DNA from: Aurantimonas endophytica
GTDB taxonomy: Bacteria; Pseudomonadota; Alphaproteobacteria; Rhizobiales; Rhizobiaceae
NCBI RefSeq assembly: GCF_014196845.1
Contig: NZ_JACIEM010000001.1
Span: 434,001 to 498,000, forward strand
Reading direction: 5' to 3'
DNA length: 64,000 nucleotides
In this document: positions 1,937-12,451 of the stretch, piece after piece
Layout of the letters: each line of letters opens with the position of its first letter
Numbering within the stretch: position 1 is the stretch's first letter
Translations under genes and position numbers: made by a program
Notes under the pieces: model-generated
What the model saw: only the letters and a program-made list of their open reading frames with translations
The model's database searches: none
Told to the model about the DNA's origin: nothing

Positions 1937-3646
1937 CTAGAAGGTCTGGCCGGACAGCATCGCGAAATGTTCGGCGATGGGTCCGAGCGCGAGGGCCGGG
2001 AAGAAGGTGAGGCCGCCGATGATCAGGATCACCGCGATCAGCAGCGTCACGAACAGCGGCGTGTGGGTGGGGAAGGTCCCGGACGAAGCCGGAACGGTCT
2101 TCTTGGCGGCAAGCGACCCGGCAACGGCCAGCATCGGCACGATGAAGGCGTAGCGCCCGAGCAGCATCGCGATGCCCTGCATCACGTTGTGATACGGGAC
2201 GTTGGCATTGAAGCCGGCGAACGCCGAGCCGTTGTTTCCGGTCGCCGAGGAGTAGGCGTAGAGGATCTCGGAAAGCCCGTGCGGACCCCTATCCTGAAGC
2301 GATGCGAGGGCCGTCGGGATCATGGCGGCCATGGCGCCGAAGACGAGGACGCCGAGCGGCATCACCAGGAAGGCGATGATCGAGAGCTTGACCTCCTTCG
2401 CCTCGATCTTCTTGCCGAGATATTCCGGCGTCCGCCCGACCATGAGGCCGGCGAGGAACACCGTCAGCACCACGAACAGCAGCATGCCGTAGAAGCCCGA
2501 GCCGACGCCGCCGAAGACGATCTCGCCGAGCTGCATCTGCAGCATCGGCGCCAGCATGCCCAGCGGGGTGTAGCTGTCGTGCATGGAGTTCACCGAGCCG
2601 TTGGACGCGGCCGTGGTCGCGGCAGCCCACAGCGCGGAATTGCCGGTGCCGAAGCGGACTTCCTTGCCCTCCATGTTGCCGGCGGACTGGTCCACCGGCA
2701 TCTCCGCAAAGAGCGCATTGCCCTGGATTTCCGGCGCGTATGTGAGGGCAAGGCCGCCGATGAAGAGGATCAGCATCGTCGCGAAGATCGCCACGCCCTG
2801 CCGCATGTCACGGCCCATCCGGCCGAACATGAAGCAGAAGGCCGCCGGGATCAGCAGGATGGAGACCATCTCGATGAGGTTCGAGAGCGGCGTCGGGTTC
2901 TCGTAAGGCACCGCCGAGTTGGCGTTGAAGAAGCCGCCGCCATTGGTGCCGAGCTGCTTGATCGCGATCTGCGATGCTGCCGGGCCCTGGGCGATGGTCT
3001 GCCGGGCGCCTTCCACCGTCGTGGCGTCGACATGGGCCGTCAGGTTCTGCGGCACGCCCTGCCAGACGAGCGCCAGTCCGACCAGGATCGACAGCGGCAG
3101 CAGGACGTAGAGGACCGACCGGGTGAGATCGACCCAGAAATTGCCGAGCGACCTGGTCTCCCGTCCGAAGAAACCGCGAATGACGGCGGCACCGATGGCG
3201 ATGCCGGTCGCCGCCGACACGAAGTTCTGGACGGCGAGGCCGACCATCTGGCTGAAATACGACATCGTCGTCTCGCCGCCATAGGCCTGCCAGTTGGTAT
3301 TGGTGACGAAGCTGACCGCCGTGTTGAAGGCAAGATCCGGCGACAGAGGCGGCATGCCTTCCGGGTTCCACGGCAGCAGGTGCTGCAGCCGCAGGATCGC
3401 ATAGAGCAGCACCCAGCCGGCGAGATTGAACGCCAGCGCGGCGAGCGCATAGCGCGTCCAGTGCTGTCCGGCATTGTTCCGGTCCACTCCGGCAACACCG
3501 AGGAGAAGCCTCTCCACCGGCTGCAGCACGGGGGTAAGGAAGGTCCTCTCTTCGGAAAAGACCTTGGCCATGTAGATGCCGAGCGGCCAGGCAAGGGCCG
3601 TCAGCAGCGCGCCATAGAGCGCGAACTGGATGATGTCCGATGACAT
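1937..3646 (-). CDS. kdpA: Potassium-transporting ATPase, potassium-binding subunit KdpA
   Basis: KdpA is the channel-like subunit of KdpFABC that selects and binds K+. The protein is 569 aa, normal for the family, and is almost wholly hydrophobic with about ten membrane helices. Selectivity-filter-type loops are visible, including TNGGGFF in the middle of the protein and [10 protein letters not shown] near residue 120. The start [10 protein letters not shown] at 3646 matches the usual KdpA N-terminus. It lies 10 nt downstream of kdpF and 10 nt upstream of kdpB on the same strand, a classic kdp operon. A long antisense frame runs through it and is a composition artefact. Confidence 0.98.
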
Positions 3647-3840: not shown

Positions 3841-4316
3841 GACTGCGCTCCGTGTGAGGATGCAGCCTATGTGCTTCCGGGGGCCGTCAACGCGCCATTA
3901 TCCGTATGGGTGGGGACCCTAAACATCGCATAGACCGTTGATGCTCTGTTTATGCCTCGGCCGGCGCGGCGACTGCTCGGACGCGTGATCCTCAAGGCGG
4001 CCTGGGGCAGGTGACGGCGCGCGGCACGGGCGGGACTGCGTATCGCCCGATAGCTGGGGCGCAGTGGCCGTCCTCCGTGCCCGACACCTCCTGCCGTCAC
4101 TGCGCCGCTGGAGCGCCTTCTGCGTCGACGTGATCGATCAGCTGCGGGTCGAACGCGCCGGCGGAGACATGAATCGTCGGAATCGTGTCCGGATTCGGCG
4201 AAAGACGCGCCGCTCGGCCGAGGCCATATCGCGGTGTGCGGTGCGGCACGCTTGTCTTTGGCGGCCGCACTCGCTATGTCGCGCCGGAACTTCAGACCTC
4301 CGGACTGGGAGCAGGC
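3841..4316. other. Divergent intergenic region between kdp and tuf (476 bp)
   Basis: No convincing gene is present. The region must hold the leftward kdp promoter and the rightward tuf promoter. On the minus strand a TTGACG hexamer lies at 3885-3890, but the best -10-like sequence after it is spaced at only about 14 nt, so I do not call a kdp promoter. The area around 3895-3955 is more AT-rich than its surroundings and is where a response-regulator site such as KdpE would be expected; no recognisable operator is visible. The tuf promoter is listed separately. Confidence 0.6.
4252..4280 (+). promoter_or_regulatory. Predicted housekeeping promoter of the first tuf gene
   Basis: A -35-like TTGTCT at 4252-4257 and a -10-like TATGTC at 4275-4280 are separated by exactly 17 nt. 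Transcription would start near 4287 and give a leader of about 30 nt before the tuf ATG, with a ggag ribosome-binding site in between. The match is by eye. Confidence 0.5.
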
Positions 4317-5492
<1,176 letters not shown>

Positions 5493-5532
5493 CGACGGCC
5501 GCGCACGGCGCAGCCTTCCGCAGACACTTGAT

Positions 5533-5558
5533 AAACGGGCCCTTCGCGGGGCCCGTTT
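5533..5558 (+). terminator. Rho-independent-type terminator after tuf copy 1
   Basis: A perfect 10-bp stem, AAACGGGCCC pairing with GGGCCCGTTT around a 6-nt loop, starts 41 nt after the tuf stop. The right arm ends in TTT. It should isolate tuf from the glycan cassette downstream. Confidence 0.8.
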
Positions 5559-5708
5559 GCATTTCCGGGGACACTCCTGGGTCAGTCGACCTTAGACGCT
5601 GGTCGATGGAGGAACTCGTGGCCTTCGGCCGCTGCATCGGCTCGCGGGTGGCTGGCGCCGGCCGAGGGATTTGCGCTAGAGACCGGCGAGATCTGCGGGG
5701 AGATACGC

Positions 5709-6659
5709 GTGCGCGTCTGGACGGTGAGCGAGGAAAAGGCGGGTACGCTGACCCAATGCCTCGGCGTTGCCGGCCATCTCGCGAGCGACCCGGTGGTTCA
5801 CACGATAAACCGCCTGGCGAAATGGCGGCGCGGCCTGCTGTCACCGTACCGGCGCGTGCGGGAGCCGGAGCCCGATATCGTCATCTCCTGCGGCTGGTTC
5901 GCCGAGCGACACGTGGCGCGGATCAAGGAGCGCTTCGGCGGGCGTCCGCTCGCGGTGCACCTGCAGCCGCCGGCCCCGCCGTCGGCGGGAATCTACGACC
6001 TTGCCTTTGTCTCCCGGCACGACTGGAATAGCGAGAGGCTGGAAGGCACCGAATATCGCAGCATGATCGGGGTGCCGCATCGCATCACCCGGCAATGGCT
6101 GGACGAGCGGCGGCCTGTCGCCCGCGCGCGCTGGCTGCCAGCCGGCGACGAGAGCCACATCGTGGCAATGCTCCTCGGCGGGCCGAACGGGGCCTATGAC
6201 TACGATGCGGCGACCGTCCAGCGTCTGGTCGGGATTGCCCGGCAGCTGGCCGCGGAGGGCCGCCTCGTGCTCGTAACGACGTCGCGCCGCAGCCGCCCGA
6301 CGCTGCTGGAGGCGCTGCTCCGGATCGAGGATCCGCGTGTCCACATCTGGGACCGGGCAGGCGAGAACCCGTATCACGACTATCTCGCCGCCGCGGACAG
6401 CTTTCTCATCGGCAAGGACACGGTGACGATGCATTGCGAGGCACTGACGTCGGGTCGTCCCGTCTACAGTCTCGACCTCGCTCCGGTCGATGGCGAACGG
6501 CTCGAGAAGTTCGAGTGGTTCCATCATGACCTGCAGGAAACTCTGGGCCTGACCCGACGCTTTGGGGGAGCCCTCGATCCCTACGACTACCGATTTGCCG
6601 ACCAGGCAGAGGCGATCGCTGACGCGATCCGGATCCACCACGCGGCGCGGCGTCGATGA
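5709..6659 (+). CDS. ELM1-family (DUF1022) protein, probable glycan-related
   Basis: The 316-aa product begins at a GTG with VRVWTVSEEKAGT and resembles the mitochondrial fission ELM1-like family, whose members share an early W...(D/E)xKAGH/T..Q motif and a later LGGPN motif (here LLGGPNGAYDYD near residue 157). Bacterial members often sit in lipopolysaccharide or capsule loci, and the two-lobed layout recalls GT-B glycosyltransferases. Function is not established. No signal peptide is apparent. Its stop overlaps the next ATG by 4 nt, implying translational coupling. It is the first gene of the rightward block of the cassette. Confidence 0.75.
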   Translation: MRVWTVSEEKAGTLTQCLGVAGHLASDPVVHTINRLAKWRRGLLSPYRRVREPEPDIVISCGWFAERHVARIKERFGGRPLAVHLQPPAPPSAGIYDLAFVSRHDWNSERLEGTEYRSMIGVPHRITRQWLDERRPVARARWLPAGDESHIVAMLLGGPNGAYDYDAATVQRLVGIARQLAAEGRLVLVTTSRRSRPTLLEALLRIEDPRVHIWDRAGENPYHDYLAAADSFLIGKDTVTMHCEALTSGRPVYSLDLAPVDGERLEKFEWFHHDLQETLGLTRRFGGALDPYDYRFADQAEAIADAIRIHHAARRR

Positions 6660-7327
6660 CAGATGCCCCGCTGACGGCGCGGCTGCTGCAGGTGCGCGAG
6701 GCGCAGCGCGAGGCGATGGGCCGGCTTGGGCTCCTTCATCGCCCCTGGGTGCTCCTGGGAGGCGCACCGGAGCCGACCATGCCTGCCGACCTCTTGGCGA
6801 GCCATGCGCGCATCGACATCAACAATTCGGGCCTGGCGGCGAAGCAGCGCGGCTGGGATCCCGCCGACCTGACGGTCCGTCGCCCGGTGGAATCCTGGAA
6901 GGTCTTCCCCGATCTCGAGACGAAGGCGTTGCTGTGGTACAATGCGCGGCCGAGATGGCGGCAGCGCTGGAAGCTGATCCGCCAGCGCCGGGCGAAGATC
7001 GGCGCGCTGGTCTCGCTTGATCCCGATGACCGGGAAGCGATCAACCAGGCGCTGCTGGGGCCTGAAATCCTGACGGTGGGTGAACTGGGCAAGCCATCGA
7101 CCGGCATTGCGGCGCTCTGCTATGGGCTCTTCCTCGGCGTTCCCGAAATCGTCCTTTCTGGCTTTTCCTTTTCGCGCGCCGGACATTCCTACGACACGCT
7201 CGCCCGCCCACGGCTGCAGATCGCCGAGGACCGGTATGCCCTGACCCGCCTGCGGGAGGACAAGCGGGTCGCCACCAGCGAGCCGGAACTGGCGGAGGAT
7301 CTCGGCCTGCGCCTGTGGAAGCCCTGA
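6656..7327 (+). CDS. Putative glycosyltransferase-like protein, GT42/DUF115-like (paralogue 1)
   Basis: The protein is 223 aa. Near residue 30 it has PWVLLGGAPEP, a nucleotide-binding-type loop, and near residue 150 a segment PSTGIAALCYG...PEIVLSGFSF. The second resembles the conserved S/T-G-x-x...E-I-x-L-x-G segment of GT42 sialyltransferases and DUF115 proteins. The same features occur in the protein at 9052-9765, including a GHSYD...R...IAEDRYAL tail, so the two are paralogues. The gene overlaps the ELM1-like gene by 4 nt. The exact substrate cannot be read from sequence; GT42-like assignment is inference from motifs. Confidence 0.6.
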   Translation: MTDAPLTARLLQVREAQREAMGRLGLLHRPWVLLGGAPEPTMPADLLASHARIDINNSGLAAKQRGWDPADLTVRRPVESWKVFPDLETKALLWYNARPRWRQRWKLIRQRRAKIGALVSLDPDDREAINQALLGPEILTVGELGKPSTGIAALCYGLFLGVPEIVLSGFSFSRAGHSYDTLARPRLQIAEDRYALTRLREDKRVATSEPELAEDLGLRLWKP

Positions 7328-7397
7328 CGGCGATGCGGTTCAGCTGCCGCTGTCGACCCTTTCGGCCGCCGGCGCGGTATCAGGCGGCCGTTCGGAA

Positions 7398-7426
7398 TTG
7401 GACATTGCGCATCGGGGGTGTATGAG
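7398..7426 (+). promoter_or_regulatory. Predicted promoter for the GT8-like/GT29-like gene pair
   Basis: A TTGGAC at 7398-7403 and a TATGAG at 7421-7426 are spaced by 17 nt, inside the 131-nt gap before the GTG at 7459. It would make the second half of the rightward cassette a separate transcription unit. By-eye match only. Confidence 0.4.
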
Positions 7427-7458
7427 GCCTCCGGTTTATCAAACAACGAGGTCGTCAC

Positions 7459-8151
7459 GTGAAGCACCCGCCAGTCCAGGTCTTCGTAGGGTTCGACTCC
7501 AAGGAAGTGATTGCCTACCACGTCCTTTGCCAGAGCATTCTCGAGCGGTCGTCGGTGCCGGTCCTGTTTTCTCCGCTCTATCTGCCGAATCTCGGGTCGG
7601 TCTTCACCCGCGAGCGCAATGCGCTGCAGTCCACCGAATTTTCCTTCTCGCGCTTTCTCGTGCCGGCCTTGAGCAATTTCGAGGGCTGGAGCCTGTTCAT
7701 GGATTGCGACATGCTGATGCGTGCCGACATTGCCGAGCTCTGGGCGCTGCGGGATGAGAACTACGCGGTGCAGGTCGTCAAGCACGACTACACGCCGAAG
7801 GTCGAGACCAAGTTCCTCGGGCAGACGCAGACCAAGTACGAGAAGAAGAACTGGTCGAGCGTCATGCTCTTCAATAATGCCCGATGCCGTGCGCTGACCA
7901 CCGACTATGTGAACTCGGCCACCGGGCTCGAGCTGCACCAGTTCAAGTGGCTCGAGGGCGACGAGAATATCGGCGAGATCCCGGCAGCGTGGAACTGGCT
8001 GGTCAACGAGTACGACTTCAACGCCGACGCCCGCAACGTTCACTTCACCGACGGCGGCCCGTATTTCGACGAATACAAGAATGACGACTATGCCGACGAG
8101 TGGTTCGCCGCGCGCGAGCGCACGCTCTTCGTGCAGCAGCGCGGCGGCTGA
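7459..8151 (+). CDS. GT8-like glycosyltransferase
   Basis: The 230-aa product starts at GTG with VKHPPVQVFVGFDSKE, a GT-A nucleotide-sugar-binding N-terminus. A DxD-type metal/nucleotide motif appears as MDCDMLM near residue 77, preceded by ...FSRFLVPAL, as in GT8-type enzymes. Further conserved-looking acidic and His residues follow (LEGDENIGEIP, VHFTDGGPYFDEY). No signal peptide or membrane helix is seen, so it should act on the cytosolic face on lipid-linked or nucleotide-activated glycans. It is followed after 18 nt by the GT29-like gene, so the two are co-transcribed. Donor and acceptor are unknown. Confidence 0.75.
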   Translation: MKHPPVQVFVGFDSKEVIAYHVLCQSILERSSVPVLFSPLYLPNLGSVFTRERNALQSTEFSFSRFLVPALSNFEGWSLFMDCDMLMRADIAELWALRDENYAVQVVKHDYTPKVETKFLGQTQTKYEKKNWSSVMLFNNARCRALTTDYVNSATGLELHQFKWLEGDENIGEIPAAWNWLVNEYDFNADARNVHFTDGGPYFDEYKNDDYADEWFAARERTLFVQQRGG

Positions 8152-8169
8152 CGGGCGGGGCGCAGACAC

Positions 8170-9033
8170 TTGAACGCAACCGAATATCGCGGGTCAGGCT
8201 TGCCCGACACACGCGAGGGCTGGGCGGATTATCTCGGCGGTTTCGCGCGGGTCGTGCTCGTCGCCAACAGCGACGCGGTCGATATCGCATCGCTCGGGTC
8301 GCGTTACGGTGATGGCACGCTCTTCGTCTTCTTCAACAAGGTCTTCAAGGTTCTCGACGCGCCGTTCGACCGGCCGTCGCTGCTGGTTGCCCGCAGTAGC
8401 GCGGCCGGGGCCAACATCGTCTATCGGCGGGAAGTCGACGACGTGCTGCGGCTCCTGCGCGGCGCGCATTTTCAAGGCATATTGAACCTCAGCGCCGGCG
8501 ACCAGGAAGTCTTCAGCCCGGCCAACGATTTCGGTGGCGCCAGGGTCGGCTATCTCGATCTCACCCCGGTCTTCGTGGACTTCTATCCGCCGACGCATGT
8601 GCCGACGAGCGGCTTCGCTCTGGCCTACTGGCTGGCGGAAGCCTGTCCCGATCTGCCGATCGTCCTCGCCGGCTTCACCGCGCGCCGGTCGCAGGCGTGG
8701 AAGCTCTTTCACGACCACGAATGGACCTTCGAGCAGATCGTCAACCGGCTGCTGGTGCGAAACGGTCGGCTGACGATGGACGGCGGAAGCAGCGGCGGTC
8801 GATGGGACCGCATCGCCGAGCGCGTGCCGGGCATTACCCCCTCGGACGTGGCGTTGGTCTCGGCCGAGGTGCTGTCCGAACGGCTGGAAGGCACCAACAT
8901 CGTGGTCGACCGGCTGCTGTCCCTGACCCGGTTGCAGGGCTGGTTCAGCGGGTTCCTGCGCTCGTTGAAGCCCAAGACGCGCAAGCAGAAGCTGGCGGAG
9001 AAATCGGCCGCCGAGGCGCCCGGCAAGTCCTGA
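8170..9033 (+). CDS. GT29-like (sialyltransferase-motif) protein of the glycan cassette
   Basis: The product is 287 aa from a TTG start. It has RVVLVANSDAV near residue 27, resembling the L-motif VGN(S/G) loop of GT29-type proteins, and near residue 155 PTSGFALAYWLAE...IVLAGF followed by FHDHEWTFEQ. That combination resembles the S-motif and the His-containing motif of bacterial GT29-like proteins often found near Kdo/capsule genes. The C-terminal 30 residues are rich in Lys and Arg. It follows the GT8-like gene by 18 nt and converges with the gene at 9052-9765. Family assignment is from short motifs only. Confidence 0.55.
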   Translation: MNATEYRGSGLPDTREGWADYLGGFARVVLVANSDAVDIASLGSRYGDGTLFVFFNKVFKVLDAPFDRPSLLVARSSAAGANIVYRREVDDVLRLLRGAHFQGILNLSAGDQEVFSPANDFGGARVGYLDLTPVFVDFYPPTHVPTSGFALAYWLAEACPDLPIVLAGFTARRSQAWKLFHDHEWTFEQIVNRLLVRNGRLTMDGGSSGGRWDRIAERVPGITPSDVALVSAEVLSERLEGTNIVVDRLLSLTRLQGWFSGFLRSLKPKTRKQKLAEKSAAEAPGKS

Positions 9034-9051
9034 ACCGGGCGCGCCGTTCGC

Positions 9052-9765
9052 TCAGCCGGCGGCGACGCTCGCCATCAGGGGGAGGCCGGTTATCCGGCTG
9101 AGGCTGGGTTCGGTCGTCGTTACCTGGGGATAGCGCTCGGCGACGACCGCGAGCGCTGCACGATCCTCCGCGAGATGGCGCCTGGTGCGCGCGGAGCGGT
9201 CGTAGGCATAGCCGTCGCTGTCGAGAGAGATGCCGGCGACGATGATCTGCGGGATGCCGACGGCAATAGCGTAGGCGATCAGCGCCACGCCGTTGGACGG
9301 CCTGATCTCGTCGCCGCTGCCGCCGAAGAGCGTGCCCAGCGTGCCGATGATGAAGGCATCGCGTTCGCGGTCGGTGAGGGCGCATTCCCTGGCCTTGAGA
9401 AACGGCAGGTCGCGACGAAGCCGTGTCAGAAGGCTCTGGCGCTTGCACAGCCGCAGGATGGAATCGACGGAGAGCCCGGCGATCTCCTCGGGCTTTGTTT
9501 TCGTCAGGAGAAAGGTGAGGTCGCCCGATGGCAGTCCATGCTGGCGCGCCGCGTGCCCGGCATATTTGACGTGGACATGGGCGGTCCGCGGCGGGAAGGG
9601 ATCCGGGACATGCGGATCCGGCGCCGAGCCGAGGATGAACCACGGCCGGTCCGTCAGACCTCTGGCGCCCAGCCATGCCGCGTGCCGGGCCGACAGGGGG
9701 GCAAAATCCCGGGCAATGACCTGCTCTTCGTCAGCATTGAACGGCTGCCGCACGGTCTCGGTCAC
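9052..9765 (-). CDS. Putative glycosyltransferase-like protein, GT42/DUF115-like (paralogue 2)
   Basis: This 237-aa protein is a diverged relative of the product of 6656-7327. It shares PWFILGSAPDP near residue 40, a PSNGVALIAYA...PQIIVAGISL segment near residue 165, and the GYAYD...R..LAEDRAAL...V.T.EP.L..ITGLPL tail. The rest is poorly conserved, so the two may use different donors or acceptors. It is the last gene of the leftward block (HAD, kdsB, this gene), 73 nt after kdsB. Linkage to kdsB suggests a role in a Kdo-containing surface polysaccharide, which is inference. Confidence 0.6.
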   Translation of the reverse strand: MTETVRQPFNADEEQVIARDFAPLSARHAAWLGARGLTDRPWFILGSAPDPHVPDPFPPRTAHVHVKYAGHAARQHGLPSGDLTFLLTKTKPEEIAGLSVDSILRLCKRQSLLTRLRRDLPFLKARECALTDRERDAFIIGTLGTLFGGSGDEIRPSNGVALIAYAIAVGIPQIIVAGISLDSDGYAYDRSARTRRHLAEDRAALAVVAERYPQVTTTEPSLSRITGLPLMASVAAG

Positions 9766-9838
9766 GGAACGAGCTCCTGCTTACGCGCTGGCGTCCGGAT
9801 CCCACGAGGCTCTGGCACGGGGCGGGACCAGACGAAAC

Positions 9839-10576
9839 TCAATGGCCGGCCATCAGCGTGCGGACGCGGTCGAGATCGGCCGGCGTGTCGACCGGAATGC
9901 CTTCGTCGTTGGGCACCTGCACCATCTGGACCCCGTAGCCGTGCTCGACGAAGCGCAGCATCTCGACGCCCTCGGCCTGTTCCAGCGGTCCGGGCTTCAG
10001 CGAAGCGAAACGCTCAAGCCCCTCGCGACGGAAGGCATAGAGGCCGAGCTGGCGCAGATGGCGGACGGCGCCGCCTTTCGGATAGGGGATCGGCAGGCGG
10101 GAATAGGCCATGGCCAGGCGCGATACGGTCATCACCACCTTGACCACGTTGGTGTCGATCGCGTCGGAGGGCGAGGATATCTCGTTGTAGCCGTTGGACG
10201 CCTGGACATTCGGATCGTCGCAGGCGGCGATGCCTCTGGCGACGCGCGCAATCGCCTCCGGCTCGATCATCGGCTCGTCGCCCTGGACGTTGACGATAAT
10301 ATCGGCATCGAGGCGTGCAGCGCATTCGGCCACGCGATCCGTGCCGGATGCGTGGTCACTGCGGGTCATCAGCACAGGCAGATCCAGCACCTCGCATACC
10401 TTGCGGATCCGGTCGTCGTCGGTGGCGATCGTCGCCGCATCGATGCCCTCGGCGGCGATCGTCTGCTGATAGACGTGCCAGAGCATCGGCTTGCCGTTGA
10501 TGTCGGCGATCGGCTTGCCGGGAAAGCGGGAAGCGCCGAAACGGCAGGGAATGACGGCGACGATACGCGGGGCCAT
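9839..10576 (-). CDS. kdsB: 3-deoxy-manno-octulosonate cytidylyltransferase (CMP-Kdo synthetase)
   Basis: KdsB activates Kdo with CTP to give CMP-Kdo, the donor for lipopolysaccharide core or Kdo-containing capsule. The 245-aa protein starts MAPRIVAVIPCRFGASRFPGKP, the family signature near the N-terminus, and has NVQGDEP and the ASNGYNEI-type segment mid-protein. A longer in-frame reading reaches 10765 but lies inside the HAD gene; the ATG at 10576, right after the HAD stop, is the expected start. It lies 11 nt downstream of a HAD phosphatase gene and upstream of a GT42-like gene on the minus strand. Confidence 0.95.
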   Translation of the reverse strand: MAPRIVAVIPCRFGASRFPGKPIADINGKPMLWHVYQQTIAAEGIDAATIATDDDRIRKVCEVLDLPVLMTRSDHASGTDRVAECAARLDADIIVNVQGDEPMIEPEAIARVARGIAACDDPNVQASNGYNEISSPSDAIDTNVVKVVMTVSRLAMAYSRLPIPYPKGGAVRHLRQLGLYAFRREGLERFASLKPGPLEQAEGVEMLRFVEHGYGVQMVQVPNDEGIPVDTPADLDRVRTLMAGH

Positions 10577-10587
10577 GATGCGGGTCC

Positions 10588-11244
10588 TCAACTGAGCAGG
10601 AATGTCTGGAGATCGGCCGGCGCTTTGGCCGCAAAGAGACAGTCGGCCGGCCGTGCACCGTAACCCCAGTCGACGTGGACGTAGTCGACGCGCGCCCGGC
10701 GCGCGGCTTCCGCGTCCGAATCCATGTCGCCGATGAAGACTGTGTTCGAAGGGTCGACGTTGCACCGGGCCATCGCAAACAGGAGGTGATCGGGCGCCGG
10801 CTTGCCCCGCAGCCCGTCACGGGGAGTCATGACCACCGCGAAGCCGATGGGCAGGCGGTCAAGGACGAGTTCGGTCCGCGCCGCGTCCTTCGATGTCACG
10901 ATGCCGAGCTGCCGACCACTATCGGCAAGGGTCGACAGCATTTTGTCGATCCCCTCGAAGACAGGTGTCTCGTGCAGCGACTGGCTGGAGGCGCGCCGGA
11001 ACACCCGTTCGATGGCGCCGGCTGAATGGGCGAGCCCGAGCCGCGCCATGATGTCGGGGAACGGTCGCCCGATCTCCGCGAAATAGGCCTCGAAGGGCAG
11101 GGCGATCCCGAGCTCCTCCCGAACGCTGCTCCAGGCGATCTCCATATTCCGGCGCGAATCCAGGATCACGCCGTCGAGGTCGAACAGGATGAGCGACTTT
11201 GGCCGGTTCACCGTGGTCTTGTTCATGGCCGACTCCGGTATCAT
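10588..11244 (-). CDS. HAD-superfamily hydrolase, phosphoglycolate phosphatase-like
   Basis: The 218-aa protein has HAD motif I as FDLDGVILDS (nucleophile Asp22 and Asp24 from the first Met), motif II in IVTSKD, a Lys in RGKPAPDH, and motif IV as FIGDMDSDAEAA. It is a subfamily IA enzyme with a helical cap, not the capless KdsC type, so it is unlikely to be the standard Kdo-8-phosphate phosphatase. A second ATG six codons in is an alternative start. It heads the leftward block, 11 nt before kdsB, so a sugar-phosphate substrate linked to the glycan pathway is plausible but unproven. Confidence 0.85.
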   Translation of the reverse strand: MIPESAMNKTTVNRPKSLILFDLDGVILDSRRNMEIAWSSVREELGIALPFEAYFAEIGRPFPDIMARLGLAHSAGAIERVFRRASSQSLHETPVFEGIDKMLSTLADSGRQLGIVTSKDAARTELVLDRLPIGFAVVMTPRDGLRGKPAPDHLLFAMARCNVDPSNTVFIGDMDSDAEAARRARVDYVHVDWGYGARPADCLFAAKAPADLQTFLLS

Positions 11245-11437
11245 CTGGTGGCCGGCTGCTCTCGGCTACGGTCCGAACCCTGCCGCGGCGGATGTAGCGA
11301 TCCGCCATGGGGGTGTCCATTGCAAACTGGCGCAGGACGCCGCGGGCTGCGAGATGCAGACACGGACGGCACCAGCCTTTCCATGGCGGCCGTGTGTCGC
11401 CGCCGGAGCCAGGCGGAGGGCGTTGCGAAAATCGCTG

Positions 11438-11466
11438 TTGCAGTTCCTGCCGCGAGGCGATATTCG
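11438..11466 (+). promoter_or_regulatory. Predicted promoter of tRNA-Trp
   Basis: TTGCAG at 11438-11443 and TATTCG at 11461-11466 are separated by 17 nt and end 10 nt before the first tRNA base. The placement is what a tRNA promoter should show. By-eye match. Confidence 0.4.
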
Positions 11467-11476
11467 GACCCCGCGA

Positions 11477-11552
<76 letters not shown>

Positions 11553-11594
11553 GAGCCCTCGGCCCCCGATCATCCGAAATTGACGCGACCGGGC

Positions 11595-11623
11595 TTGTGA
11601 ATCACGTCAAGGGCGTTTAAATG
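11595..11623 (+). promoter_or_regulatory. Possible promoter of secE-nusG
   Basis: TTGTGA at 11595-11600 and TAAATG at 11618-11623 have a 17-nt spacer, within the 139-nt gap between tRNA-Trp and secE. The transcript would have a leader of about 60 nt. Read-through from the tRNA promoter is the alternative. Confidence 0.35.
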
Positions 11624-11691
11624 GATTTTCACAGACACGTGGCGCGTGGGGCTGGTTAGCGGCCTTCACGCGCTTTAGCTATGAGCGGTGC

Positions 11692-11889
11692 ATGGCCAAG
11701 ACCAATCCCTTCACCTTTATCCAGCAGGTGCGCACCGAGACCGCAAAGGTCACGTGGCCGACCCGCCGGGAGACGATGATCTCGACGATCATGGTGTTCG
11801 TGATGGTCACCTTTGCCGCGGCGTTCTTCTTTATCGCCGACCAGGCCCTTGGCTATCTGGTCGGGTTGATCATGAACGTCAGCGTCTGA
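11692..11889 (+). CDS. secE: Protein translocase subunit SecE
   Basis: SecE is the small membrane subunit that clamps SecY in the SecYEG channel. The 65-aa protein has the short amphipathic stretch before its helix with the family signature VRTETAKVTWPTRRE, then one transmembrane helix (about residues 30-58). This is the one-helix form common outside enterobacteria. It precedes nusG by 31 nt, as in almost all bacteria. Confidence 0.97.
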   Translation: MAKTNPFTFIQQVRTETAKVTWPTRRETMISTIMVFVMVTFAAAFFFIADQALGYLVGLIMNVSV

Positions 11890-11920
11890 CGCCAGACACC
11901 GCAGGAGTAATCGCAGCATC

Positions 11921-12451
11921 ATGACCGCCCGCTGGTACATCGTCCACGCCTACTCGAATTTCGAGAAGAAGGTCGCGGAATCGATCGAGGAGCAGGCCCG
12001 GCAGAAGGGGCTCTCCGACAAGTTCGAGAAGATCCTCGTCCCGACCGAGAAGGTCGTCGAGGTTCGTCGCGGGCGCAAGGTCGACGCCGAGCGAAAGTTC
12101 TTTCCGGGCTACGTGCTGGTGAAGGCCGAGCTGACCGACGCCGTGTTCTCGATGATCAAGAACACGCCGCGGGTCACCGGGTTCCTCGGGCCGGACAATC
12201 GTCCGGTGGCGATTTCCGACAAGGAAGCCGAGCAGATCCTGATGCAGGTCCAGGACGGCGTCGAGCGGCCGAAGCCGACGATCTCCTTCGACATCGGCGA
12301 GAACGTCCGCGTGTCGGATGGTCCGTTCGCCTCGTTCAACGGCGTCGTTCAGGAAGTCGACCAGGAGCGCACACGGCTCAAGGTCGAAGTGTCGATCTTC
12401 GGTCGGGCAACGCCCGTCGATCTCGAATTCGGTCAGGTCGAAAAGGTCTGA
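11921..12451 (+). CDS. nusG: Transcription termination/antitermination factor NusG
   Basis: NusG binds RNA polymerase and links it to Rho and the ribosome. The 176-aa protein has the NGN domain from residue 3 (ARWYIVHAYSNFEKKV, then FFPGYVLVK), a linker, and a C-terminal KOW domain with VSDGPFASFNGVVQEVD. Length is normal. It is cotranscribed with secE, and a 140-nt gap with a small cgggc-ttcg-gcccg hairpin (12456-12469) separates it from rplK. Confidence 0.98.
   Translation: MTARWYIVHAYSNFEKKVAESIEEQARQKGLSDKFEKILVPTEKVVEVRRGRKVDAERKFFPGYVLVKAELTDAVFSMIKNTPRVTGFLGPDNRPVAISDKEAEQILMQVQDGVERPKPTISFDIGENVRVSDGPFASFNGVVQEVDQERTRLKVEVSIFGRATPVDLEFGQVEKV

Follow-up and report, generated by a model that had tools for sequence, protein, structure and literature searches.

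Genes between tuf and tRNA-Trp

The window analysed in this work, a stretch of 64,000 nucleotides from Aurantimonas endophytica, contains an island of seven open reading frames (ORFs) between tuf, which ends at position 5492, and the gene for tRNA-Trp, which starts at 11477. The interval measures 5,984 bp, and position 5559, at which the annotated stretch begins, is the first base past an inverted repeat behind tuf. An initial annotation had reported about 5.9 kb with seven genes between tuf and tRNA-Trp/secE, and had read them as one compact, inserted pathway for a surface glycan containing 3-deoxy-D-manno-oct-2-ulosonic acid (Kdo). The interval and all seven ORFs were recovered, and the family identities proved right as far as they were examined: those of the ELM1-family protein, the cytidine monophosphate (CMP)-Kdo synthetase KdsB and the haloacid dehalogenase (HAD) phosphatase agree with Pfam and NCBIfam, and the match of the glycosyltransferase family 8 (GT8)-like protein lies just below the cut-off. 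The source genome comprises 5.04 Mb in nine contigs and is 97.85% complete. The features are listed below, where dN/dS is the ratio of nonsynonymous to synonymous substitution rates.

4317..5492, + strand: tuf (EF-Tu), left border; 95-99% identity to Tuf of the Aurantimonas relatives L005, L007 and L008
5533..5558, + strand: perfect 10-bp inverted repeat with a 6-base loop and a short T tail, terminator-like, directly past tuf; read from the sequence
5709..6659, + strand: ELM1-family protein (PF06258), GTG start; Pfam E 6.5e-56; dN/dS 0.12-0.14
6656..7327, + strand: GTa, GT42-like paralogue, 31% identity to GTb; dN/dS 0.12-0.14
7459..8151, + strand: GT8-like glycosyltransferase, putative core member; Pfam (PF01501) 23.2 bits (cut-off 24.3); D-C-D (DxD) in the sequence
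8170..9033, + strand: orf4, GT29-like, TTG start, putative core member; fold model and invariant residues
9052..9765, - strand: GTb, GT42-like (CstII fold), His197 kept; fold model and profile search
9839..10576, - strand: KdsB, the second CMP-Kdo synthetase of the genome; Pfam CTP_transf_3 E 9e-42, NCBIfam kdsB equivalogs, nearest solved structure 1gq9
10588..11244 (start 11226 or 11244), - strand: HAD phosphatase of the phosphoglycolate/3-amino-5-hydroxybenzoate (AHBA) type; Pfam HAD_2 E 3e-28, NCBIfam
11477..11552, + strand: tRNA-Trp (CCA), right border
11692..12451, + strand: secE and nusG, right flank

The genes form three units, ELM1-GTa and GT8-orf4 on the forward strand and HAD-kdsB-GTb on the reverse strand, the last of which converges on orf4; ELM1 and GTa overlap by 4 bp (ATGA). 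Comparison with A. aggregata and A. marina gave dN/dS values of 0.05-0.20 for all seven, which indicates purifying selection, and they are therefore real, selected genes. The base composition of the island is like that of its flanks, without a GC shift at the borders, and no exact direct repeat of at least 9 bases was found between 5493-5720 and 11227-11700. Pfam gave no credible match for GTa, GTb and orf4, and no integrase-like, transporter or polymerase match among the seven proteins. The ELM1 protein scored 190.1 bits against PF06258 (cut-off 27) and is the sole match to this family in the genome; searches of the PDB gave one chance match for it and no solved relative for the GT8-like protein. 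The inverted repeat at 5533-5558 was not among the sites returned by a promoter/terminator scan, the number of which was at chance level.

Distribution and age of the island

Homologues of orf4 were found in 44 of the 247 genomes of the family, belonging to 24 of its 109 genera. A search of 297 genomes at the level of the order gave four carriers, all four within the family; both counts include the source genome, and a fifth match in the order search (E 7e-4 over 44 residues) was not counted. Among the 41 carriers viewed (the others being G432, G464 and G494), orf4 has tuf, tRNA-Trp or secE at a distance of no more than 9 kb in 30 and is located elsewhere in 11, and in the named genomes tuf or secE is present at 15 of 19 loci. 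The nearest relative among the named loci by protein identity is Aurantimonas aggregata (orf4, 92%; KdsB, 97%; NusG, 100%).

A search of 61 family genomes with NusG yielded 30 complete tuf-trnW intervals besides that of the window. None of the seven genes occurs in 21 of these (84-3040 bp, median 399 bp; some with other genes), and nine hold some of them. The statement of the initial annotation that tuf usually lies near tRNA-Trp thus stands at the level of the family, for which proximity was counted. All complete intervals besides that of the window number 41, 20 of them with island genes, and as 11 of these 20 had been picked for orf4, the selection-free count is 9 of 30.

In a tree of NusG, L11, SecE and Tuf, made by a quick method from 63 rows, the window falls into a clade of 17 rows (support 99) that holds Aurantimonas and Jiella. 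The island is present in all 15 scored rows of this clade, eight of which had been picked for orf4, the other seven being the window and six rows also in the NusG sample; in the two unscored rows (G323 and G316) it lies beside tuf, on another contig or at another place. Outside this clade the island is scattered, and the tree as a whole requires at least seven changes. In the Aurantimonas/Jiella clade the island is therefore ancestral, a long-standing resident rather than a recent arrival; other lineages have gained or lost it on several occasions. The comparison of tuf-trnW intervals, which had been suggested as a way to reveal an ancestral arrangement, gave a divided answer, as the island is common to its own clade and absent from 21 of the 30 family intervals. 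The term "inserted" consequently holds against the family ground plan alone and not as a novelty of the strain; since all scored rows of the clade have the island, the event is old, and "ancient and modular" describes it better.

The idea of one compact pathway was too strong, because the members come and go separately. A. coralicida DSM 14790 (L009) is devoid of GTb-kdsB-HAD, and A. manganoxydans (L008) has just GT8 and orf4 of the seven, together with two further ORFs, one of which resembles nucleotide-diphospho-sugar transferases below the cut-off. Other variable genes at the site encode GT2- and GT4-type transferases and an epimerase, and the kdsB-HAD unit, opposed to tuf and adjoining tRNA-Trp, recurs in other genera (L090 and L091). 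An orthologue of the GT8-like protein (at least 72% identity) was detected in 31 of the 247 family genomes, all of which carry orf4; it lies within 5 kb of orf4 in 30 and on another contig in the remaining one, and 33 further family genomes have a paralogue alone (at most 50% identity). Judged by gene content, the GT8-like and GT29-like genes appear to be the core, with ELM1/GTa and GTb/kdsB/HAD as optional parts.

Two observations concern the same site in other genomes. The Jiella loci L014, L015 and L017 keep the link to tuf and have no tRNA-Trp, secE or nusG past orf4 within the 10 kb examined, so the chromosome has probably been rearranged there between orf4 and trnW. Five further loci (L094:7692, L098:8167, L107:9100, L123:9211 and L133:856) have in the tuf-trnW gap a conserved gene read as an NAD-dependent epimerase; the five are 71-89% identical among themselves, and four of the five intervals are without island genes.

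A second CMP-Kdo synthetase

The KdsB of the cassette exceeds both relevant NCBIfam cut-offs (TIGR00466, 160.6 bits against 155.2; NF009905, 260.2 against 255). Four proteins of the genome match PF02348, namely this KdsB, a housekeeping KdsB, GlmU and a MobA-type fusion, the last two identified by reading of the ORFs. The initial annotation had proposed that another kdsB be sought elsewhere in the genome; the housekeeping copy is that gene, 38% identical to the cassette KdsB and situated between a cytochrome c gene and a prephenate-dehydratase-like gene (names by reading). The best PDB match of the cassette KdsB is 1gq9 (193 bits), that of the housekeeping enzyme 3jtj, and the latter is also close to 3oam; 1gq9 is the capsule enzyme KpsU, and 3jtj and 3oam are of the lipopolysaccharide (LPS) type.

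The second enzyme is associated with orf4. Cassette-type KdsB (E <= 1e-50) is encoded in 8 of the 247 family genomes, all eight of which have orf4, at a gap of 149-1632 bp from the orf4 gene. The housekeeping KdsB was present in all 15 orf4-bearing genomes checked, and the second type in six of them. No synthetase of the NeuA/PseF type, for CMP-sialic or CMP-pseudaminic acid, was among the four PF02348 matches of this 97.85% complete genome. KpsC/KpsS (PF05159) had no match in the source genome or in any of the eight genomes with cassette KdsB, and PF05159 occurs in 3 of the 17 genomes searched; the idea that the second KdsB serves a canonical KpsC/KpsS capsule was accordingly rejected. Because a second KdsB is present and neither NeuA nor KpsC/KpsS was found, CMP-Kdo is the likely donor of the island transferases, an assignment that we grade as good. 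The link to Kdo made by the initial annotation is strengthened by this gene neighbourhood and by the finding of no other CMP-sugar synthetase.

The GT29-like protein orf4

The structural model of orf4 was built from a 20-row alignment, with a mean predicted local distance difference test (pLDDT) score of 75.6. Its best PDB match was human ST6GALNAC2 (probability 0.99, E 9e-3), followed by the mammalian sialyltransferase 2wnb (probability 0.96, E 1e-2). Against the viral models of BFVD, a Mimiviridae protein was found at E 4e-5, and the top 14 also included a protein of that virus named as GT29 and a pair of viral sialyltransferases. Among 57 distinct relatives (59 rows before collapse at 97%, each at least 26% identical to orf4), residues N33, S34, G148, F169, H183, W185 and E188 are invariant, and G168 is conserved in 56. 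Compared by eye, the N-S, G, F and H-x4-E of orf4 appear to match the residues of the sialylmotifs L, S and VS. On the model, orf4 would fall, with fair confidence, into a GT29-like fold class.

Sequence searches gave less. A profile comparison of orf4 with GTa and GTb was borderline (probability 56% and 36%), and PDB searches by phmmer with the single orf4 sequence and with the orf4 profile returned chance matches alone. In a class-level search PF00777 (GT29) was found in 1 of 240 genomes and PF06002 (GT42) in none of the 240; as the control genomes matched neither, these counts do not establish absence. Since neither orf4 nor GTb passes the Pfam GT29 and GT42 models, orf4 and GTa/GTb are regarded as divergent GT29-like and GT42-like proteins rather than as established members of these families. 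The motif names used above are those given for GT29 in PMC5811610, where relatives of GT29 are also reported from alphaproteobacteria; orf4 may belong to that stock, although it fails the sequence tests.

Tandem GT29-like genes near tuf were observed at two loci, L074 (G394; 1016-2681) and L090 (G318; 8875-10507), the copies being 33-61% identical to orf4 of the window.

The GT42-like paralogues GTa and GTb

The GT42-like fold was read from the GTb model (23-row alignment, mean pLDDT 85.3). Each of its 17 PDB matches at E <= 1e-3 is a sialyltransferase (CstI/CstII in 15 cases), with template modelling (TM) scores of 0.45-0.59, and a GTa/GTb profile finds CstII by sequence (E 0.0036). PF06002 and PF01973 were each matched by none of 23 GTa/GTb-type members (at E <= 1 for PF06002), and a phmmer search of the PDB with the single GTb sequence gave chance matches alone (cytochrome b559). 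Of the two fold calls of the initial annotation, the GT42-like one is thus borne out by the GTb model, and the GT29-like one less firmly, given the weak E values of orf4.

At the column of GTb His197, distinct rows have His in 11 of 11 of the GTb type and in 8 of 8 of a third, Rhizobium-type clade, and Gln in 20 of 20 of the GTa type (13, 9 and 23 before collapse; 45 rows, with the window proteins counted twice). His197 may correspond to H188, the C-terminal catalytic histidine of CstII. GTa is under purifying selection despite its Gln at this column; it may be a transferase whose chemistry has changed, or it may act as a partner to GTb.

Acceptor

In three genomes (G498, G351 and G377) the orf4 homologue lies in the order carB-greA-[GT4]-orf4-...-trxB. 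The corresponding cluster of Sinorhizobium is likewise flanked by carB and trxB. In that genus greA is followed by lpsB and lpsCDE, the products of which are assigned to LPS-core synthesis; mutants in lpsB and in lpsE are described as having altered LPS (PMC3788101). As orf4 homologues are neighbours of greA and a GT4 gene, a position that LPS-core genes occupy in Sinorhizobium, the LPS core is favoured as the acceptor with moderate confidence by this analogy; a capsule or another glycan is possible.

At two greA-GT4 loci, MptE-like proteins below the PF01973 cut-off adjoin orf4 (L082:10193-11107 and L086:9735-10673) and are perhaps a further companion of the DUF115/GT42 type.

Proposed function and alternatives

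The reading to which we give about half of our confidence is that the island is an old, modular and swappable cassette for the LPS core, or for another surface glycan, in which the GT29-like enzyme transfers Kdo. The HAD protein, perhaps a Kdo-8-phosphate phosphatase, and the dedicated second KdsB would make CMP-Kdo; the GT8-like enzyme would add an alpha-linked hexose or uronic acid from a uridine diphosphate (UDP)-sugar to the LPS core; and orf4 would transfer Kdo from CMP-Kdo, with inversion, onto the branch made by GT8. GTb, with its His kept, would be a second transferase of the CMP-Kdo type and GTa its altered partner, and ELM1 would be an accessory transferase-like protein. Within this scheme the roles of the GT8-like protein, HAD, GTa and ELM1 are weakly assigned.

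Several results weigh against this proposal. The model of orf4 is weak in part and has no PDB match at E <= 1e-3 in Foldseek; the TM score with its best match is just 0.39, and unrelated folds, many of them TIM (triosephosphate isomerase) barrels, come next at similar E and low probability. PF00777 was matched by none of 20 orf4 members at E <= 1, no credible Pfam family was found for these 20, and orf4, when compared by profile with the one bacterial PF00777 protein of the class-level search, gave no significant match (probability 0.5%). The HAD protein is not KdsC-like: TIGR01670 was not among the best 25 of 37 HAD families, the genome has two sub-cut-off matches to it, neither at the island, and none over the cut-off, and HAD as a KdsC orthologue was rejected on these results. 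The GT4 gene beside greA was likened to lpsB by position and not by sequence. A further PF02348 protein of unclear type is present in 2 of the 15 orf4 carriers checked (G318 and G323). Finally, 36 of the 44 orf4 carriers are without cassette-type KdsB and 13 of the 44 without a GT8 orthologue, and to ascribe CMP-Kdo use to every member of the orf4 family is therefore to extrapolate.

The same enzymes and the same CMP-Kdo donor might instead serve a capsule-, K-antigen- or exopolysaccharide-type glycan rather than the LPS core. The affinity of the two KdsB enzymes for 1gq9 and for 3jtj/3oam, capsule and LPS enzymes, respectively, would suit such a product, and Sinorhizobium fredii is described as making a Kdo homopolymer capsule (PMC3788101). 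However, the absence of PF05159 matches from the source genome and from all eight genomes with cassette KdsB, the lack of a transporter or polymerase match among the seven proteins, and the three genomes in which an orf4 homologue neighbours greA and a GT4 gene make this rather unlikely. That the GT29-like and GT42-like proteins use a donor other than CMP-Kdo, with KdsB in the island for another reason, would accord with the 36 carriers without cassette KdsB and with the unmet sequence membership of GT29 and GT42. We nevertheless doubt it and consider it distinctly unlikely, since all eight cassette-type KdsBs lie beside or near orf4, the housekeeping KdsB of all 15 carriers examined makes CMP-Kdo available without a local copy, and the best fold matches are CMP-sugar enzymes.

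Classical sialylation, with a sialic-acid-like CMP-nonulosonate as donor, is suggested by the closest folds, which are sialyltransferases, and yet is highly improbable, given the absence of a NeuA/PseF-type synthetase from the four PF02348 matches of the 97.85% complete genome; sialic acid was rejected as donor on this evidence. A recent, horizontally acquired insertion into tuf-trnW, with which the 21 of 30 readable family intervals without island genes agree, is barely credible and as a recent event largely refuted: the island is in all 15 scored clade rows, on which ground a strain-specific or recent insertion was rejected, and neither a GC shift, nor direct repeats of at least 9 bases at the ends, nor an integrase-like match among the seven proteins was found.

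Significance and surroundings

What makes the cassette reading most interesting is the tie between a GT29-like family of bacteria and a dedicated CMP-Kdo synthetase. Our more specific proposal is tentative, and we consider it possible rather than probable: in it, orf4 and GTb both transfer Kdo from CMP-Kdo, belong to the sialyltransferase (GT29/GT42) fold class and are encoded alongside a CMP-Kdo synthetase of their own. The Arabidopsis GT29 protein MGP2/RCKT1 has been proposed as the CMP-Kdo transferase of rhamnogalacturonan II, and its expression in E. coli is reported to have failed (PMC11288761); eukaryotic GT29 has been proposed to derive from alphaproteobacteria (PMC5811610). If our proposal is true, the original donor of the alphaproteobacterial GT29-like stock may be CMP-Kdo, so that the plant Kdo transferase would represent the ancestral state and animal sialylation a derived one. 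With a bacterial relative that uses this same donor, it could be tested directly which donor was the original one. The present proteins are candidates for such Kdo transferases with a sialyltransferase fold; they are small and bacterial, and a dedicated CMP-Kdo synthetase is encoded beside some of them. In part of the Rhizobiales, tuf-trnW appears as a hot spot for surface-glycan genes. A literature search found no paper on this island, and none on GT42 sialyltransferases of alphaproteobacteria, bacterial ELM1 glycosyltransferases or Kdo transferases of Rhizobiales capsules.

The left flank of the window departs from that of its relatives. Homology to the A. aggregata locus (97%) ends at 4236, shortly upstream of tuf. 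Relatives have a tRNA-Tyr/tRNA-Gly pair ahead of tuf; this pair is absent here, and a gene read as kdpA (1937-3646, - strand) lies upstream. The break at 4236 is probably a rearrangement point.

Comparison with known systems

Like the KpsU/KdsB CMP-Kdo synthetases, the cassette KdsB passes the kdsB equivalog cut-off and matches 1gq9; it differs in its setting, since its neighbours are GT29/GT42-like genes and the genomes that encode it gave no KpsC/KpsS match. The likeness to the greA-lpsB-lpsCDE cluster lies in three genomes whose orf4 homologue stands next to greA and a GT4 gene. Rhizobial LpcB, named as a CMP-Kdo transferase of the core (PMC11103875), would belong to the same proposed reaction class, the addition of an outer Kdo to the core.

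GTb resembles the CAZy family GT42 and the DUF115/MptE-like proteins in its fold matches, CstI/CstII being 15 of the top 17 and HPPK of Methanocaldococcus standing at rank 19. The paralogues are set apart from GT42 by the lack of PF06002 and PF01973 matches, by the Gln in place of His in the GTa clade and by a donor that is probably CMP-Kdo. Orf4 resembles CAZy GT29 in its best fold matches, ST6GALNAC2 and 2wnb, and in N-S, G, F and H-x4-E, which are invariant at positions resembling the sialylmotifs, and differs in the lack of a PF00777 match (20 members) or of a significant profile match to bacterial GT29, and in its link to KdsB. It has a single Cys and hence no L-S disulphide, as reported for bacterial GT29 in PMC5811610. 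The Kdo transferases of families GT30, GT73 and GT99 are described there as using CMP-Kdo; none of the seven island proteins has a Pfam match of these kinds, and a bacterial GT29/GT42-type Kdo transferase, if such it is, would represent a fold class other than theirs.

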